This document shows, piece after piece, positions 4,037 through 55,708 of a DNA stretch of 64,000 nt; positions within the stretch are counted from its first letter, which is position 1, and each line of letters starts with the position of its first letter. The position numbers were made by a program, and so were the translations under genes. Source of the DNA: Taibaiella koreensis (GTDB lineage Bacteria > Bacteroidota > Bacteroidia > Chitinophagales > Chitinophagaceae); NCBI RefSeq assembly GCF_003545715.1, contig NZ_QVNU01000007.1:124001-188000 (forward strand). The letters run 5' to 3'. Below the pieces are notes generated by a model. It had not been told where the DNA came from. It did no database searches and saw nothing but the letters and a program-made list of their open reading frames with translations.

Positions 4037-7000
4037 TTGTACTTAAAGTCTATATATCGGATCCTGGCTGTGTTTCTCATCTTTTGCCTGCCCTGCACAT
4101 TACGGGCCCAGGTGCGGGATACCATGGCGCTGCGTTCCAACTGGCGCAGTAAAACAGTAATACTCGTATCACGGGATACGCTGCATATCGACAGCTTTTC
4201 GATAGATCGCAGCAGCTTTCGCATTGAGGGCGTTCCCGATTCTGCATTTATACTCTATCCCGAACATGCTTTCTTGGTGTGGAAACATAAACCGGCGGGA
4301 AATTCGCTGAGGTTGCGCTACCGTACGCTGCCCTTCCTGTTTACCAGCAAAAGGACCCATAAAAATGCGGGCATCATTGAAACCAATGTTCCCTTCTCGC
4401 CCTTTAGCTATTCACTGAGCGATACGGCGATGAATGGCTTCGTCGACTTCAACAGCATCGAATATAATGGTACTTATGGACGTAGCCTCACTATAGGCAA
4501 TAGTCAGGATGTGTCGCTCAATTCCAGCTTTAACCTGCAGCTCAACGGCTACATCCTCGATAGTGTCCGCATTGAAGCTGCAATAACGGATAATAACATA
4601 CCAGTCCAGCCCGACGGCAATACCCAGCAACTACAGGAATTTGACAGGCTCTATATCACCTTTGAAAAAGGAAAACACAAGCTTACCGCCGGCGACTACA
4701 ACCTGGAACGTCCCAATAGCTATTTTATCAATTTTACCAAAAGAGTGCAGGGACTTATGTACCAGGCAGAGCTGCCCTCCAACAGCAAGGTGAAAAATAA
4801 AGTGGGTATCAGCGGCTCTATTGCCAAAGGGCAATTTGCACGCAATATTTTTCAAGGTATCGAAGGTAACCAGGGACCTTACAAGCTTACGGGAAACAAT
4901 GGCGAACAGTTCTTCATTGTGCTGGCCGGTACCGAAAAGGTCTATATCGACGGTATACTGATGGAGCGGGGAGAGGACCGTGACTATGTGATCAATTACA
5001 ATACCGGCGAGATCACCTTCATGCCACGGCAGCTCATTACCAAAGACAAAAGGATACAGTTTGAATTTGAATACCAGGACCGGAATTATCTCAATACATT
5101 GATTTATGCCTATGATGAACTGCAGGTGGGGAAAAAATGGAACTTCCGATTAAATGCCTATTCCAACCAGGACGCCAAGAACCAGCCCTACACTCAGAAC
5201 CTCACCGGGGAGCAGAAGCGATTTCTCGAAGGGATCGGCGACGATATAGACCAGGCTTTTTTCCGGGTGATCAATACCGATACATTTGCCGCTAATAAGA
5301 TCCTTTATAAAATGGTGGATACCGTAGTGAATGGTATCACATTTGACAGTGTATTCGTATACTCTACCAATAAGGATAGCGCGCGGTATTCGCTGGGGTT
5401 TTCGTACGTGGGGGAAAACAAAGGCAATTATATTATTGCGGGGACCAACACCAATGGCCGTTCCTATAGCTGGATCGCACCGGCAAACGGACAGCCTCAG
5501 GGCAATTATGAGCCGGTGGTGCTGCTGATCACGCCCAAAAAACAGCAATTGTTTACGCTGGGTTCTACTTACCAGATCGATTCGTTCAAGCGGATCAGCG
5601 TGGAGCTGGGGGCCAGCAACTATGCGCCCAACCTGTTCTCCTCGCGTGATAAAGATGAGCATTGGGGATTTTCAGGACGGGGTATCTACGATGAGGTGCG
5701 GTTTATGGGTAAAAAAGACAGCCTGGGTCGTAAACCTGTGAGCTGGAAGAACCAGCTGAGCTACGAATTTGTCCAGAGCCGTTTCCGCGCTATCGCACCC
5801 TACCGGAATGTGGAATTCTCGAGGGACTGGAACATCCCGCTGGATGCCGAGCCTGAGGATGAGCATCTCATAGGATACAATACTGAATTGAAGAAGAATG
5901 CGCTGGGGGGTATCCTGTATAACCTAACCTGGTATCAGCGTGGGACCGATTACAAAGCTAATCGCAATGTTATTACCCTCAATTATGATCGCAAGCAGGT
6001 GAGGGGTAATATCACCATCAACCTGATGCAATCGAGCAGCCCACTGCAGAAGACGTTATACTTCAGACCGTCGGGTTACCTGGAGCGTACCTTTAATAGC
6101 CTCGGCGGCATTACCCTGGGGGCGCGCTACCAGAAGGAGCATGACGAGATACGCTATACGCCCACAGATACCTTAATGCCTTCTGCTTTTGCTTTTGATA
6201 TATTCAATGTTTACCTGAGGAGTAAAGAAGAACGCAAAACCCGGCTGGAGCTCAATTATACCCTTCGAAAGGATAAAGCAGTAGTGAATAACGGATTTGC
6301 CGAGCAGAATGAGGGCCATACAGTGGATGCGAAGCTGGGGCTGTACCATTGGGCCAATCACCAGATCACCTTTACCGGCGCCTATCGTAAGCTGTTTATT
6401 CGTATCCCGTCGCCCACCGCCCAGGAGCAGGGCGAAAATGTGCTGGGCCGTGTCGAATACAATGGCAATATCGGCAAAGGCTTCCTGGTGCCTTCCCTTT
6501 TGTACGAAGTGGGTTCCGGCCAGGAGCAGAAACGTATCTATACTTATGTGGAAGTGCCGGCCGGACAGGGTGTCTATATGTGGAACGATTACAACAAAGA
6601 TGGTGTACAGCAAACCAATGAATTTGAGCTGGCGCTTTATCCCGATCAGAAAAAATACATACGGCTAATCACGCCTACCAACGAATATGCCAAGGTGAAC
6701 TATGTGCTGCTGAATCATTCGCTGCAGCTAAACCCCGAGAATATATGGGCGGGTAAGGATAAAAAGAAAGGCTGGCAACGCCTGATCAGCCGCTTTTCGG
6801 ATCAGCTATCGGTGCAGATCAACAACCGGGTGCTGGCGTCGGCGGGTTTTTCCGCTTTCAATCCTTTTGCCGGAAACGTACAGGACACCAATATCATTGC
6901 CAACCTCACTTCCATCAGCAATACATTCTTCTACAACCGAAGCAGTGCCGTATGGGGAGGCGAATACACGACGACCTACAACGCCGGCAAAACCCTGCTG

Positions 7001-7549
7001 ACCTATGGCTTGGAAGGCAACAACCTGTTACGGCACGCTGCAAAGCTGCGGTGGACTTTTTTACGATCGCTTACCGGTAACCTTGCCGCACAAACGGGTG
7101 AGAAGAGCTACCGGTCTTCACTGGACGATGGCCGCAGCTACCTGGTACCACAAAATAGTATTGAGCCTTCGCTTACCTGGATCATGAAGTCGAGCTTCAG
7201 GCTTACCGGGGGCTACAAGTACGACGAACGCCGCAACCGGCCGGTCTATGGCGGCGAACAGGCCCTGATACAATCGGCTAACCTCGACGCCCGCCTGACG
7301 AGCAAGACCCTGGGAACGTTACAGGCGAGGGGCACCTATGCCAATATCAGCTATACCGGCGCACCCAATACCTCTTTATCGTTTGTGATGCTCGATGCCC
7401 TGCAGAATGGCAGCAATTGGCTTTGGTATCTGAATTGGGAGCGCAGGTTAAGCAAGGGGATCGAGCTGTCGCTGGAATATGAAGGGCGTAAACCCGGAGA
7501 CAACCCGGTAGTGCATACCGGGCGAATGAGCATAAGGGCAATCCTGTAA
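4037..7549 (+). CDS. Large putative outer-membrane beta-barrel protein, function unknown
   Basis: A 1170-residue protein. The only plausible start is a TTG at 4037: it gives a good signal peptide (MYLKSIYRILAVFLIFCLPC... ending at LRAQ), while the first in-frame ATG lies beyond the cleavage site. Residues about 25-330 look like a folded N-terminal part; the mid-section has TAGDYNLERPNSYFINF and GTEKVYIDGILMERGEDRDY. From about residue 350 onward the sequence is a long run of alternating-hydrophobicity strands rich in Tyr, Asn and Arg, ending in GRMSIRAIL, as expected of a large barrel. There is no TonB-dependent plug motif and no T9SS tail. It stands alone between two terminator-bounded units. 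I do not recognise a named family. Confidence 0.8.
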   Translation: MYLKSIYRILAVFLIFCLPCTLRAQVRDTMALRSNWRSKTVILVSRDTLHIDSFSIDRSSFRIEGVPDSAFILYPEHAFLVWKHKPAGNSLRLRYRTLPFLFTSKRTHKNAGIIETNVPFSPFSYSLSDTAMNGFVDFNSIEYNGTYGRSLTIGNSQDVSLNSSFNLQLNGYILDSVRIEAAITDNNIPVQPDGNTQQLQEFDRLYITFEKGKHKLTAGDYNLERPNSYFINFTKRVQGLMYQAELPSNSKVKNKVGISGSIAKGQFARNIFQGIEGNQGPYKLTGNNGEQFFIVLAGTEKVYIDGILMERGEDRDYVINYNTGEITFMPRQLITKDKRIQFEFEYQDRNYLNTLIYAYDELQVGKKWNFRLNAYSNQDAKNQPYTQNLTGEQKRFLEGIGDDIDQAFFRVINTDTFAANKILYKMVDTVVNGITFDSVFVYSTNKDSARYSLGFSYVGENKGNYIIAGTNTNGRSYSWIAPANGQPQGNYEPVVLLITPKKQQLFTLGSTYQIDSFKRISVELGASNYAPNLFSSRDKDEHWGFSGRGIYDEVRFMGKKDSLGRKPVSWKNQLSYEFVQSRFRAIAPYRNVEFSRDWNIPLDAEPEDEHLIGYNTELKKNALGGILYNLTWYQRGTDYKANRNVITLNYDRKQVRGNITINLMQSSSPLQKTLYFRPSGYLERTFNSLGGITLGARYQKEHDEIRYTPTDTLMPSAFAFDIFNVYLRSKEERKTRLELNYTLRKDKAVVNNGFAEQNEGHTVDAKLGLYHWANHQITFTGAYRKLFIRIPSPTAQEQGENVLGRVEYNGNIGKGFLVPSLLYEVGSGQEQKRIYTYVEVPAGQGVYMWNDYNKDGVQQTNEFELALYPDQKKYIRLITPTNEYAKVNYVLLNHSLQLNPENIWAGKDKKKGWQRLISRFSDQLSVQINNRVLASAGFSAFNPFAGNVQDTNIIANLTSISNTFFYNRSSAVWGGEYTTTYNAGKTLLTYGLEGNNLLRHAAKLRWTFLRSLTGNLAAQTGEKSYRSSLDDGRSYLVPQNSIEPSLTWIMKSSFRLTGGYKYDERRNRPVYGGEQALIQSANLDARLTSKTLGTLQARGTYANISYTGAPNTSLSFVMLDALQNGSNWLWYLNWERRLSKGIELSLEYEGRKPGDNPVVHTGRMSIRAIL

Positions 7550-7738
7550 ACAAGTAATTCCGTTATCCGGGTCAGGAACGGTTAAAAATCATGGTGATGG
7601 GTCTACAGTTGCGGTCAAAACAGTACACCTTCCCAACAGGGAGCGGTTATTGGTAGCATAAAAGACGGAACAGGGCCTGCAAAAGGTTGGCGCCCGCCGA
7701 AAAAAATAAATAGCGCTTTCTGGCGGCTGCTTTTTTTC

Positions 7739-7746
7739 TATTTTTG
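7739..7746 (+). promoter_or_regulatory. Putative -7 box for the dihydroorotase-like operon
   Basis: TATTTTTG is a perfect TAnnTTTG match ending 8 bases before the ATG at 7755. TTTC at 7717-7720, 18 bases upstream, could be the -33 element with one mismatch. The transcript would be almost leaderless. Confidence 0.6.
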
Positions 7747-7754
7747 CGCTTCAT

Positions 7755-8999
7755 ATGTCTCTTTTAATTAGAAATGTTTATATATCCGACCCGCTCTCGG
7801 AGCATAACGGCCGGAAGACTGATATCCTGATCCGTAACGGATCTATTGTTTCCATAGGAGAAGGGCTTGAAGAAAAAGCAGATACGGTGCTGGAAGGCGC
7901 ACAACTGCATGCCAGCCCGGGATGGGTAGATGTGCTGGCCGACTATTGCGATCCCGGCTATGAGCACAGGGAGTCGGTCGATAGCGGCTTGAGGGCTGCT
8001 GCTGCCGGCGGTTTTACCGATGTGATGGTAGTACCCAATACCCAGCCGGCGATCGCAACCAAATCCGTATTGGAATATGTGCAAGGCAAAGGCGCCGGTC
8101 ACGCGACAAAGCTCCATGTTATAGGGGCAATATCGCGTAACCTGGAGGGTAAAGATCTGGCCGAAATGATGGATATGCATCATTCCGGGGCAGTGGCTTT
8201 CAGCGACGGCTGGCAGGCATTGCAGCATGCCGGCCTTATGCTTAAGGCGATGGAATATGTAAAGGCATTTGACGGGATACTGGTTCAGCTGCCGATTTAT
8301 GCTTCTCTGGCCCAGGGCGGATTGATGAACGAGGGCGAGACCTCTTTGCGGCTGGGGATGAGTGGTATCCCCAACATTGCAGAGAGCCTGCTGGTGCAGC
8401 GGGATATTGAACTGTTGCGTTACACAGGCTCCCGTATCCATTTTTCCGGTATCAGCACGCCGGAATCCCTATCGCTCATCCGGGCCGCTAAGCAGGAGGG
8501 GCTGGATGTAACCTGCTCGGTAACGCCTTACCATCTTTATTTTACCGAAGAGGCCTTGCAGCAATATGACAGTGTATACAAGGTTGAGCCGCCGCTGAGG
8601 ACGGAGGCAGACCGCCTGGCCCTGGTAGCGGCCTTGTCTGATGGTACTATAGATTGTATCGCCACACACCATCGCCCACAGGATTGGGATGGCAAGGTAA
8701 AGGAATTTGAATATGCGCAGCCGGGAATGATAGGCCAGGAAACCTGCTTTGCCATGTTGCGTGCTGCCGCCCCCGATCTGCCGGTGTCGCGCTGGGTGGA
8801 GTTGCTTTCTGTCAATCCCCGGAAAATATTCGGACTGCCCCAGGCTACTATCGCAGAAGGTGCGGCGGCTACGCTAACGCTTTTTGATCCTGAAGCGACC
8901 TGGGTTTATGAGGTTGCCGGTAAACATTCCCTGGGCATTAATTCGCCCTGGATCGGAAAGACATTAACCGGAAAAATTTACAGCATAGAAAAGGCATAA
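7755..8999 (+). CDS. Dihydroorotase-like amidohydrolase, active-site residues lost
   Basis: A 414-residue protein that aligns along its length with type I dihydroorotases of pyrimidine synthesis (GGLMNEGE, GMSGIPNIAE, KVEPPLRTEADR, KEFEYAQPGMIGQE). Nearly every metal ligand is replaced. The D-x-H-x-H-x-R motif reads D59-V-L-A-D-Y-C. The first later histidine site reads LVQLPI, the HxSH segment reads HFSGIST, and ATDHAPH reads ATHHRPQ. It should therefore not hydrolyse dihydroorotate. From family knowledge, such pseudo-dihydroorotases can be structural partners of aspartate transcarbamoylase; that role here is inference. It is followed after 2 bases by the DUF4199 gene, so the two share an operon. 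Confidence 0.85.
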   Translation: MSLLIRNVYISDPLSEHNGRKTDILIRNGSIVSIGEGLEEKADTVLEGAQLHASPGWVDVLADYCDPGYEHRESVDSGLRAAAAGGFTDVMVVPNTQPAIATKSVLEYVQGKGAGHATKLHVIGAISRNLEGKDLAEMMDMHHSGAVAFSDGWQALQHAGLMLKAMEYVKAFDGILVQLPIYASLAQGGLMNEGETSLRLGMSGIPNIAESLLVQRDIELLRYTGSRIHFSGISTPESLSLIRAAKQEGLDVTCSVTPYHLYFTEEALQQYDSVYKVEPPLRTEADRLALVAALSDGTIDCIATHHRPQDWDGKVKEFEYAQPGMIGQETCFAMLRAAAPDLPVSRWVELLSVNPRKIFGLPQATIAEGAAATLTLFDPEATWVYEVAGKHSLGINSPWIGKTLTGKIYSIEKA

Positions 9000-52635: not shown

Positions 52636-53334
52636 ATGGGATTCAATAAAGTGGTAGCCAACGCCGACGAGGCGATAAAAGACATCCGGGACGGCGCAGT
52701 CATTATGCTGGGCGGATTCGGACTGTGCGGCATACCCGAGAACAGCATTACCGCTTTGATCAAAAAAGGCGTAAAGGACCTGACCTGTATATCCAACAAT
52801 GCCGGTGTCGACGATTTTGGTATCGGTCTCATGCTGCAAACCCGGCAGGTAAAAAAAATGATCGCTTCCTATGTGGGCGAAAATGCTGAATTTGAGCGGC
52901 AGCTGCTCAGTGGCGAGCTGGAAGTGGAGCTGGTGCCGCAGGGTACCCTGGTTACCCGTTGCATGGCGGCGGCATATGGCTTCCCCGCAATCTTCACGCC
53001 TGCCGGTGTGGGTACGGAAGTAGCCGAAGGGAAAGAAGTACGCCGCTTCAAGGACAAGGATTACCTGGTGGAGGAAGCCTTTGAAGCCGAATATTCTATC
53101 GTCAAAGCCTGGAAAGGGGATACTGCGGGTAATCTCATCTTTAACAAGACCGCCCGTAACTTCAACAGTGTAATGGCTATGGCCGGCAAGATCTCTATTG
53201 TTGAGGTAGAGGAGCTGGTGCCTGCAGGCCAGCTGGATCCCAACTTTATCCATGTGCCCGGTATCTATGTACACCGCATTTTCCAGGGCAACAATTACGA
53301 AAAGCGTATTGAGCAAAAAACAGTCAGGAAATAA
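52636..53334 (+). CDS. scoA: 3-oxoacid CoA-transferase subunit A (SCOT alpha), without adjacent subunit B
   Basis: A 232-residue CoA-transferase alpha subunit. [19 protein letters not shown] carries the family GGFGLCGxP signature, followed by [39 protein letters not shown] and [15 protein letters not shown]. The heterodimer moves CoA from succinyl-CoA to acetoacetate. The catalytic glutamate lies in subunit B, which is normally the next gene. Here the next gene is dapD on the same strand, so scoB must be elsewhere or absent. Confidence 0.93.
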
Positions 53335-54297: not shown

Positions 54298-54340
54298 AAT
54301 GATAGTAGTGTCCGCAAACATGGACGCTACCTGGAAAAAA

Positions 54341-54375
54341 AATGACGTTCCGGAAAAATGGAACGTCATTTTTTT
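54341..54375 (+). terminator. Terminator after dapD
   Basis: Stem AATGACGTTCC / GGAACGTCATT (11 bp, 8-base loop), extended by A-T pairs and followed by TTTTT. It separates dapD from the GldM-like pair. Confidence 0.9.
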
Positions 54376-54400
54376 GTATCTTAAAGTCAGAATTGATCCC

Positions 54401-55033
54401 ATGAAGAAATATTGGTGTGCTGCCCTGCTCCTGCTTTTTACCTTGCCTGCCGAGGCACAGGTAGCGGTGAGCATGGACAAGGTGCATGTGGCTTACGAGC
54501 TGGTAGACAATCATATAATTGCAGCTGTAGAAGGCTGTCCCTGTAAAGACATTCAGGTAGTCACAGACTTTGGAACGATAAAGGAAGGCGAAGAGCCCTG
54601 CGCGTTTATCTTCAACGCTCCTGGGTCAGGTAGGGCTACTTTTACCGTAAGCAGAATAAAGGGTAAGGACTACCGGGAGCTCGGCAAGACTATCTACAGA
54701 GTGAAGCCGCTGCCCTTGCCTCTGGTTACAGTAGGCGGCGTGCAGCATGGCGATATGCAGGTGGCAAAGTTCCGGGCGCAGCATGGAATGATCGCCGCAA
54801 TGCAAGATGGATGGGATTTCCGTTTGGAAGTTGTTTCCTTCAGAATGTCGGTAAGCCGCAATGGCGAGATTATTTTTAACGAGGAAAATGTGGGTCCCGC
54901 TTTTAACGATGTGCTCAAACCCTTTCTGATCAAGGTGCAGCCCGGTGATATAGTGCTCTTCTCCGGCATTCGTTGCCGCAAGTCCAGTGATCATACAATA
55001 TCGATAGACCCTTTTGAGATCAGGTTAAAATGA
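54401..55033 (+). CDS. Exported GldM C-terminal-domain-like protein 1
   Basis: A 210-residue protein with signal peptide (MKKYWCAALLLLFTLPAEAQ). The mature part has two beta domains. The first (about 25-110) includes VHVAYELVDNHIIAAVEGCP, like the GldM D3 segment. The second opens PLPLVTVGGVQHGDMQVAKF and ends LKPFLIKVQPGDIVLFSGIR, matching the GldM D4 pattern (IPDPxxxVGGxxGG then a helix and KxGDxVxFxxI). True GldM is a ~510-residue motor protein of T9SS/gliding with an N-terminal membrane helix; that helix and D1/D2 are absent here. Stop overlaps the next start by 4 bases (ATGA), so the pair is translationally coupled. GldM relationship from motifs; role inferred. Confidence 0.72.
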   Translation: MKKYWCAALLLLFTLPAEAQVAVSMDKVHVAYELVDNHIIAAVEGCPCKDIQVVTDFGTIKEGEEPCAFIFNAPGSGRATFTVSRIKGKDYRELGKTIYRVKPLPLPLVTVGGVQHGDMQVAKFRAQHGMIAAMQDGWDFRLEVVSFRMSVSRNGEIIFNEENVGPAFNDVLKPFLIKVQPGDIVLFSGIRCRKSSDHTISIDPFEIRLK

Positions 55034-55671
55034 AAATCATAAAGCTACTTTCCTTTGGTATAGCCTTGCTTTTGCCGGGTATAACGACAGCGCAGCAGTT
55101 TACCGTAGGGGCCCCGGTGATGAATTTGGCTTATATCGGTGTGCCCAATCCTATTACGGTGGTATCGGGTAGCTGTGGCTGCGATGCGCTGCAGGTCAGC
55201 GTTAGTGAGGGTACGCTGGAAAAGACAGGTAATTGCCAGTACGACTTCCGGCCATCGCGACAAGGAACTGTACAGCTTACGGTGGCCGAAAAGAAAGGCG
55301 GAAAAACAAAAGTGATCCATACAAGCCGTATCAGGGTCAAATCCATTCCTGAGCCCCATGCCAGTGTCGGTGGCCGGAAAGGCGGGGAATACCCCATTGA
55401 TGAGTTTAAGGTGCAAAGCGGCGTGTCTGCTGTTGCAGAAGGTTTTGAAATGGATCTTCCTGTTGCCGTTGTCGCCTTCGATCTCAAAATAAACAGAAGT
55501 AAAGTCCAATTGGCCGAAGAACATGGACAGGGTGCGTATTTCAGTGCATCTTGCAAGGCTTCTATTAATAAGTTATTGCCGGGAGATACCCTAAAGATTG
55601 AAAATGTAAAAATCATTTCTGCCGATGGCCGGGTACAGCTGATACAAGGTGTTGTATATACTATGAAGTAA
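55030..55671 (+). CDS. Exported GldM C-terminal-domain-like protein 2
   Basis: A 213-residue paralogue of the preceding gene. It has signal peptide LLSFGIALLLPGITTAQQF, then MNLAYIGVPNPITVVSGSCG, which closely follows the GldM D3 motif (LYxGVxNPIxV). It continues with IRVKSIPEPHASVGGRKGGE, the D3-D4 linker, and NKLLPGDTLKIENVKIISAD at the end of D4. Both proteins have an added CxC (GCPCKD in the first, SCGCDA here), which I do not recall from canonical GldM. It is coupled to the upstream gene by the overlapping ATGA. They may bind T9SS partners or be secreted decoys; this is speculation. Confidence 0.78.
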   Translation: MKIIKLLSFGIALLLPGITTAQQFTVGAPVMNLAYIGVPNPITVVSGSCGCDALQVSVSEGTLEKTGNCQYDFRPSRQGTVQLTVAEKKGGKTKVIHTSRIRVKSIPEPHASVGGRKGGEYPIDEFKVQSGVSAVAEGFEMDLPVAVVAFDLKINRSKVQLAEEHGQGAYFSASCKASINKLLPGDTLKIENVKIISADGRVQLIQGVVYTMK

Positions 55672-55700: not shown

Positions 55701-55708
55701 TACTTTTG
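55701..55708 (+). promoter_or_regulatory. Putative -7 box of the mscS-like gene
   Basis: TACTTTTG, perfect TAnnTTTG, 29 bases before the TTG start at 55738. Confidence 0.5.

Follow-up and report, generated by a model that had tools for sequence, protein, structure and literature searches.

Two tandem genes, P1 and P2, were found between dapD and mscS, away from the gld genes, in the window, that is, the whole 64,000-nucleotide stretch of DNA analysed (Table 1). The original prediction had described them as an overlapping pair made only of a signal peptide and the GldM domains D3 and D4, without the membrane helix, D1 or D2 of GldM. This description was borne out: the stop codon of P1 and the start codon of P2 share an ATGA, the D3-D4 architecture was recovered by Pfam, PDB sequence searches and AF2 models, and GldM_1st (D1) and GldM_2nd (D2) gave no Pfam match in P1 or P2 at E-values up to 1. 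Beyond GldM D3 and D4, nothing exceeded a Pfam cut-off in either protein. The PDB sequence matches at E < 0.01 were GldM or PorM only (best E 3e-10 for P2 and 1.7e-4 for P1), and the GldM/PorM equivalog model TIGR03517 scored 67.7 bits for P2 and 33.0 for P1, both far under its curated cut-off of 180.

Table 1. Features of the P1/P2 locus (window coordinates)
Feature	Position	Strand	Evidence
Two RNA hairpins between dapD and P1	54305-54375	+	Fold of 54298-54400: MFE -37.5 kcal/mol, z -6.95
Second hairpin, 17-bp stem ending in T-run, resembles intrinsic terminator	54336-54375	+	
P1, predicted signal peptide + GldM D3 + D4, 210 aa	54401-55033	+	Pfam, PDB sequence search, AF2
P1 predicted signal peptide, residues 1-19, mature start taken as Q20	54401-54457	+	Sequence reading, alignment A1
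P1 D3 (GldM_3rd), residues 21-102	54461-54706	+	Pfam 22.4 bits, under cut-off 25.2; AF2 strands
P1 C46 and C48 codons (CxC); C48 is the co-occurring one	54536-54544	+	Alignment counts
P1 C67 codon, predicted disulfide partner of C48	54599-54601	+	Alignment counts
P1 D4 (GldM_4th), residues 108-209	54722-55027	+	Pfam 26.3 bits, cut-off 24.6
ATGA overlap, P1 stop / P2 start	55030-55033	+	Sequence
P2, predicted signal peptide + GldM D3 + D4, 213 aa	55030-55671	+	Pfam, PDB sequence search, AF2, Foldseek
P2 predicted signal peptide, residues 1-21, mature start taken as Q22	55030-55092	+	Sequence reading, alignment A1
P2 D3 (GldM_3rd), residues 25-104	55102-55341	+	Pfam 47.7 bits, cut-off 25.2
P2 C49 and C51 codons (CxC); C51 is the co-occurring one	55174-55182	+	Alignment counts
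P2 C69 codon, predicted disulfide partner of C51	55234-55236	+	Alignment counts
P2 D4 (GldM_4th), residues 107-202	55348-55635	+	Pfam 41.1 bits, cut-off 24.6
TACTTTTG before mscS, promoter-like element	55701-55708	+	Sequence

The AF2 models reached a pLDDT of 93.1 and a pTM of 0.75 for P1, and 90.4 and 0.70 for P2. When the P2 model was searched with Foldseek, PorM/GldM chains occupied ranks 1-7 (E 1.6e-15 to 3.9e-12), and rank 8 followed at E 8e-6. The proposed check by profile search and predicted fold therefore upheld the relationship to the GldM C-terminus. The genome's own GldM was 35% identical to P2 and 29% to P1, and P1 and P2 were 28% identical to each other. In alignment A1, glutamine occupied the presumed mature start in 16 of 16 rows. 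Judged from sequence and predicted fold, P1 and P2 are an exported pair of GldM tails without the motor. They resemble GldM/PorM, the motor shaft of the type IX secretion system (T9SS) and of gliding, in the fold and framework residues of D3 and D4; unlike it, they lack D1 and D2, begin with a signal peptide where GldM has its membrane helix, have a cysteine pair in D3 and lie outside gldKLMN.

Flanks and genome context

The mechanical ORF of P1 starts at 54299, and the signal peptide starts only at 54401. Because 54298-54400 is taken up by the two hairpins (0 of 200 shuffles folded equally well), and because the signal peptide begins at 54401, the start of P1 was put there. These hairpins were absent from the list of a consensus scan. 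The element TACTTTTG fits TAnnTTTG, which we take to be the Bacteroidota -7 consensus, and the same pattern, read by eye, likewise precedes mscS in genome G001 of the same genus and in T. lutea; it is thus a putative promoter. With the T-run hairpin before P1 and TACTTTTG before mscS, the pair looks like a transcription unit of its own. A CoA-transferase family gene (PF01144) lies at 52636-53334, followed by dapD, and its second subunit gene was not seen adjoining.

Three GldM_4th copies were found in the genome, namely P1, P2 and one true GldM. The true gldK-L-M-N row lies on contig C17 and the window on C21; its GldN scored 231.4 bits with PF19841, its GldK scored 150.2 bits with PF03781, and gldL was named by place and by eye. 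Truncation of GldM by an assembly error was rejected, given the signal peptide of each ORF and the intact GldM elsewhere. A phage or plasmid origin was likewise rejected: tblastn with P2 gave no phage match and one plasmid match, a Parabacteroides GldM, and the best PHROGs E-value was 0.026. PADLOC models returned no family for P1 or P2, and a defence gene was rejected.

The order dapD, tail(s), mscS was seen again in three genomes of genus g31 and in T. lutea, which retains two tails at this place, the first of them frameshifted. The window and T. lutea have diverged fast, with identities of 86% for dapD, 66% for mscS, 54% for GldM and 32% for P2. In G001, whose dapD and mscS are 96% and 92% identical to those of the window, the pair is absent and a short gap separates the two genes. 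This gap resembles the start of P1 and ends, like P2, in the codons VYTMK-stop, and it was therefore read as a deletion scar. The two genes are also adjacent without the pair in G094, where mscS is 36% identical to that of the window. A functional tie to dapD or mscS was rejected in favour of a shared position only, considering the terminator-like hairpin, the promoter-like element belonging to mscS and the absence of the pair in G001 and G094.

Distribution, phylogeny and constraint of free tails

Of the 147 genomes of the family, 145 had PF12080, mostly as a single copy. The search of relatives that had been proposed for such proteins was run: 298 genomes of the order were searched with free tails as the query, genomes with several matches were selected, and their loci were read, with ORFs called by a simple script. 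Among 188 aligned matches, 21 were partial and 78 were first called free; two of the latter (L020 and L098) were removed because they are probably GldM cut off by a contig end. The resulting 76 free tails came from 60 genomes, 53 of them from the order set and 7 from the family sample, so that at least 53 of the 298 order genomes carry one. The set is not exhaustive, since loci were chosen by frame size from loose first match lists and several short matches were left out; a 77th tail (L072, genome G042) fell outside the ORF filter and enters no count. Further tandem pairs were found at L116, L123 and L141. By a simple rule applied to the first 78, the signal was of the soluble type ending before Q in 53, lipoprotein-like in 13 (some by chance pattern) and neither in 12.

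Outside the order, the phylum sample yielded five free-size frames in four genomes, one genome having a tandem pair; three of these loci were read, and the frame of G427 matched in D3 only. GldM_1st was detected in 67 of the 69 genomes marked as carriers. The other two are 68% and 83% complete, and the tail of the latter is probably a contig-cut GldM. In the phylum sample, a tail match occurred in 81 genomes, all within the 94 with GldM_1st, and in 0 of the 301 without it, a count by eye in which the profile also finds GldM and kinship confounds.

In the D3-D4 tree, 51 free rows including P1 and P2 formed the all-free side of a branch (SH-aLRT 95), and the remaining free tails grouped with fusions to Peptidase_M56 or among GldM. 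The tree came from a quick search, and many of its branches are long and its deep forks weak; going by the starred branches, the label "free" must have changed at least four times. From their place in the all-free branch, P1 and P2 are old paralogues apart from GldM. A recent duplication producing P1 and P2 was rejected on their low mutual identity and on the tree, in which P2 and the second copy of T. lutea were sisters (SH-aLRT 98) and P1 stood elsewhere in the branch.

Free-tail dN/dS was 0.08-0.24 in two other lineages, the only ones with usable divergence, compared with 0.01-0.11 for neighbouring genes; by this measure, purifying selection acts on the tails of those lineages. In the comparison of the window with T. 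lutea, which has a saturated dS, dN was 0.79 for P2 and 0.40 for GldM, with ratios of 0.15 and 0.18; there the tails evolve about twice as fast as GldM and are still constrained. The ratios of the two other lineages speak against P1 and P2 being functionless remnants of a gldM duplication, as do their intact ORFs and signal peptides and the occurrence of free tails in at least 60 genomes. The frameshift in T. lutea and the absence of the pair from G001 would fit such decay, which we nevertheless regard as most improbable.

Residues nearly invariant in GldM were often lost in the all-free branch: P197 was found in 66/68 GldM vs. 16/51 branch rows, F140 in 66/68 vs. 9/51, and Q128 in 61/68 vs. 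21/51, counted over the 51 rows of the tree with extended tails included. The loss of these residues, the loss of the pair in G001 and the lack of gld neighbours at most loci make it less likely that the role is essential or identical to that of GldM. The same loss, together with the lack of D1 and D2, weighs against a dominant-negative competitor that displaces GldM from the ring and slows or uncouples the motor, a role to which homology to the ring-contacting part of GldM and co-occurrence with GldM would point. Conservation cannot decide on this competitor, because the modelled GldM-ring surface is described, in the part of PMC12635249 consulted, as not substantially conserved; on the whole, we consider it unlikely.

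Cysteines and fusions to receptors

The original prediction had noted an added CxC pair near the start of D3. As the relevant pair, CxC was not borne out: this region has three cysteines, of which the second (model column 50) and the third (column 68) co-occur. Both were present in 13 of 76 free tails and in 0 of 68 GldM; the second never occurred alone, the third accompanying it in 13 of 13 tails, and the third alone was seen in two tails, L164 and L171, the latter having another cysteine three columns off. A second pair, in D4 (columns 144 and 196), was complete in 15 of 76 free tails, with the first cysteine alone in five and the second alone in two, and in 1 of 68 GldM. No free tail had both pairs. 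This paired occurrence supports intradomain disulfides, and in P1 and P2 it suggests a D3 disulfide between the second and third cysteines.

Among the 78 tails counted before the two removals, just three had all of these D3 cysteines, namely P1, P2 and the second copy of T. lutea. The Cys-Xaa-Cys spacing is shared with the twin-cysteine proteins SprF/PorG, which are otherwise different proteins; in P1 and P2, unlike SprF/PorG, the second cysteine co-occurs with a third of the same domain. In the consulted part of PMC12635249, SprF has an invariant Cys-Xaa-Cys, of which Cys326 is bonded to Cys343 of GldK. By analogy, the first CxC cysteine of P1 and P2 might bond GldK or join P1 to P2 as a tether. 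We consider this very unlikely, however, as the second cysteine is probably used inside D3. In addition, the same part of PMC12635249 has GldK Cys343 facing the outer membrane and the PorM tip modelled at the periplasmic face, and both contacts at once look unlikely.

Six proteins (L136 and L179-L183) carried Peptidase_M56 of the BlaR1 type fused to D3 and D4, all above the Pfam cut-offs, and others (L080, L082, L175, L184-L187) carried M56 with one tail domain, sometimes weak. BlaI-like genes occurred in 10 of 13 M56-tail loci, in nine of them directly beside the M56 gene and in L179 one gene further off. At L136 (4030-6889), a BlaI-like gene, the fusion and a free tail stand in a row, and the two tails fall together in the tree (SH-aLRT 94). 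Moreover, free tails at L173 and L192 directly follow anti-sigma-like and sigma-factor-like genes (named by eye). These observations favour the main rival to a ring-bound role, in which the GldM tail is a general periplasmic binding or sensing module and P1 and P2 are free ligand-binding or decoy envelope reporters with no T9SS ring. However, the M56 fusions and the free tails nearest to them fall outside the branch of P1 and P2. In all six clean fusions the D4 cysteine pair is present and the D3 pair absent, the reverse of P1 and P2. While some BlaR1/MecR1-type receptors end in a GldM tail, P1 and P2 lack the peptidase domain, and a Pfam scan of six neighbouring genes found neither an M56 nor a BlaI-like gene. 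A sensing role for P1 and P2 is therefore, in our judgement, a minority possibility. The suggestion of a different use of the fold thus found support in another branch than that of P1 and P2.

GldM tails, or segments resembling them, were also observed in other settings. The C-termini of two Ser/Thr protein kinases (L188, 1787-3697; L189, 1812-3812) resembled the free-tail profile; Pfam GldM_4th scored 20.5 bits, below cut-off, in L188 and gave no match in L189. At L132, L133, L164 and L167, all of one genus, an M28-like peptidase, a GldM tail and dxr kept a constant order, followed at three of these loci by an rseP-like gene (genes named by eye). Tails with C-terminal extensions were seen at L152, L174 and L190, the last with a MORN_2 match barely over the cut-off (29.8 vs. 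29.6 bits).

Links to GldN and a possible role

Three tandem genes at L081 (genome G089, 4928-8649) each encode a GldM tail followed by a GldN domain, the first tail being D4 only. The GldN domains of L081_4928, L081_6172 and L081_7462 scored 51.6, 61.0 and 42.9 bits with PF19841 (cut-off 23), and the GldN of the genome with P1 and P2 matched the C-terminal halves of these proteins. The tail parts matched the free-tail profile A1, built without these three proteins, at E 1.2e-9, 4.8e-39 and 9.6e-32; Pfam GldM models remained below cut-off (best 16.4 bits). The two D3-D4 fusions fell in the same branch as P1 and P2 and had the D3 cysteines. Tail and GldN are thus one polypeptide in L081, whereas P1 and P2 have no GldN domain.

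At L079 (genome G126, 4423-7314), a small lipoprotein-like gene, a free tail, a GldK-like gene and a GldN-like gene stand in a row, the last three on one strand with gaps of 15 and 9 bp and without a GldL-like gene. The GldK-like protein scored 33.9 bits with PF03781 (cut-off 23.3) and E 1.5e-11 with the GldK profile, and the GldN-like protein scored 111.9 bits with PF19841. The tail was just under the Pfam D4 cut-off (23.8 vs. 24.6 bits) and matched P1 at 5e-7 and P2 at 3e-6 in phmmer. At L145 (G364), a GldN-like gene on the opposite strand (29.9 bits) adjoins a free tail that groups with P1 (SH-aLRT 90). Across 86 loci (882 ORFs; 73 loci with a counted free tail), no GldN-like gene was found beyond L079 and L145, L081 being additional; a GldK-like gene was found only in L079, and a GldL-like gene in none. 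An apparent excess of GldN in carriers (family f18, at least two copies: 13/21 vs. 17/65, p 0.004) was lost on size stratification (permutation p 0.18) and rejected.

According to the part of PMC12421860 consulted, PorM D4 contacts PorN by crosslinking, one D4 of the dimer is modelled free, and a 33-fold PorKN ring faces 18 PorM pillars. Given the PorM D4-PorN contact and the fusion of tail and GldN in a relative, a soluble tail is most simply a motorless partner of GldN. We accordingly rate binding to GldN of the T9SS/gliding ring as the likeliest role of P1 and P2, with about even confidence. The target would be the GldN of gldKLMN, the sole GldN match in the genome. The claim that the proteins could bind the GldKN ring thus received indirect support, from the fusions and the GldK-like and GldN-like neighbours in relatives. 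Several observations weigh against this role: the place of P1 and P2 between dapD and mscS, the rarity of GldN-like genes at free-tail loci, the Pfam GldM scores under cut-off in the L081 fusions and the L079 tail, the residues lost relative to GldM, the absence of the pair from G001, and the GldN excess that vanished on stratification.

As to mechanism, we infer that the signal peptide would be cleaved off each protein and that each mature tail would fold in the periplasm as two Ig-like domains, a disulfide (C48-C67 in P1, C51-C69 in P2) holding D3 in shape. The tail would then dock via D4 on GldN of the GldKN ring or track. Because GldN copies exceed motors and only one D4 per GldM dimer seems to dock, free tails could fill the spare sites, where they would cap, brake or link the track without pushing. 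More broadly, and only tentatively, there may be a whole family of such soluble, motorless GldM tails in Bacteroidota. Standing alone, joined to GldN or accompanied by GldK-like and GldN-like proteins, its members would make or alter rings or tracks that lack their own motor, forming a layer that serves the T9SS/gliding track as a clutch, cap or anchor; the tail would separately have become the outer domain of BlaR1-type receptors.

The original statement that no function had been described agreed with our findings: no description of free GldM tails or tail fusions was recognised in the literature searched, subscription papers being mostly outside its reach. The question addressed is how the GldKN ring receives force from the motor and what role its motor-free sites have. 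A natural soluble GldM tail, fused to GldN in one relative, would be a small reagent for the GldM-GldN contact and for motor occupancy, and its existence shows that a piece of a rotary secretion motor has been put to new uses, both as a stand-alone protein and as a domain of receptors. Among true GldM, three proteins of 609-818 aa (L176, L177 and L178) carried an insert between D2 and D3, with a coiled-coil-type family match in two.
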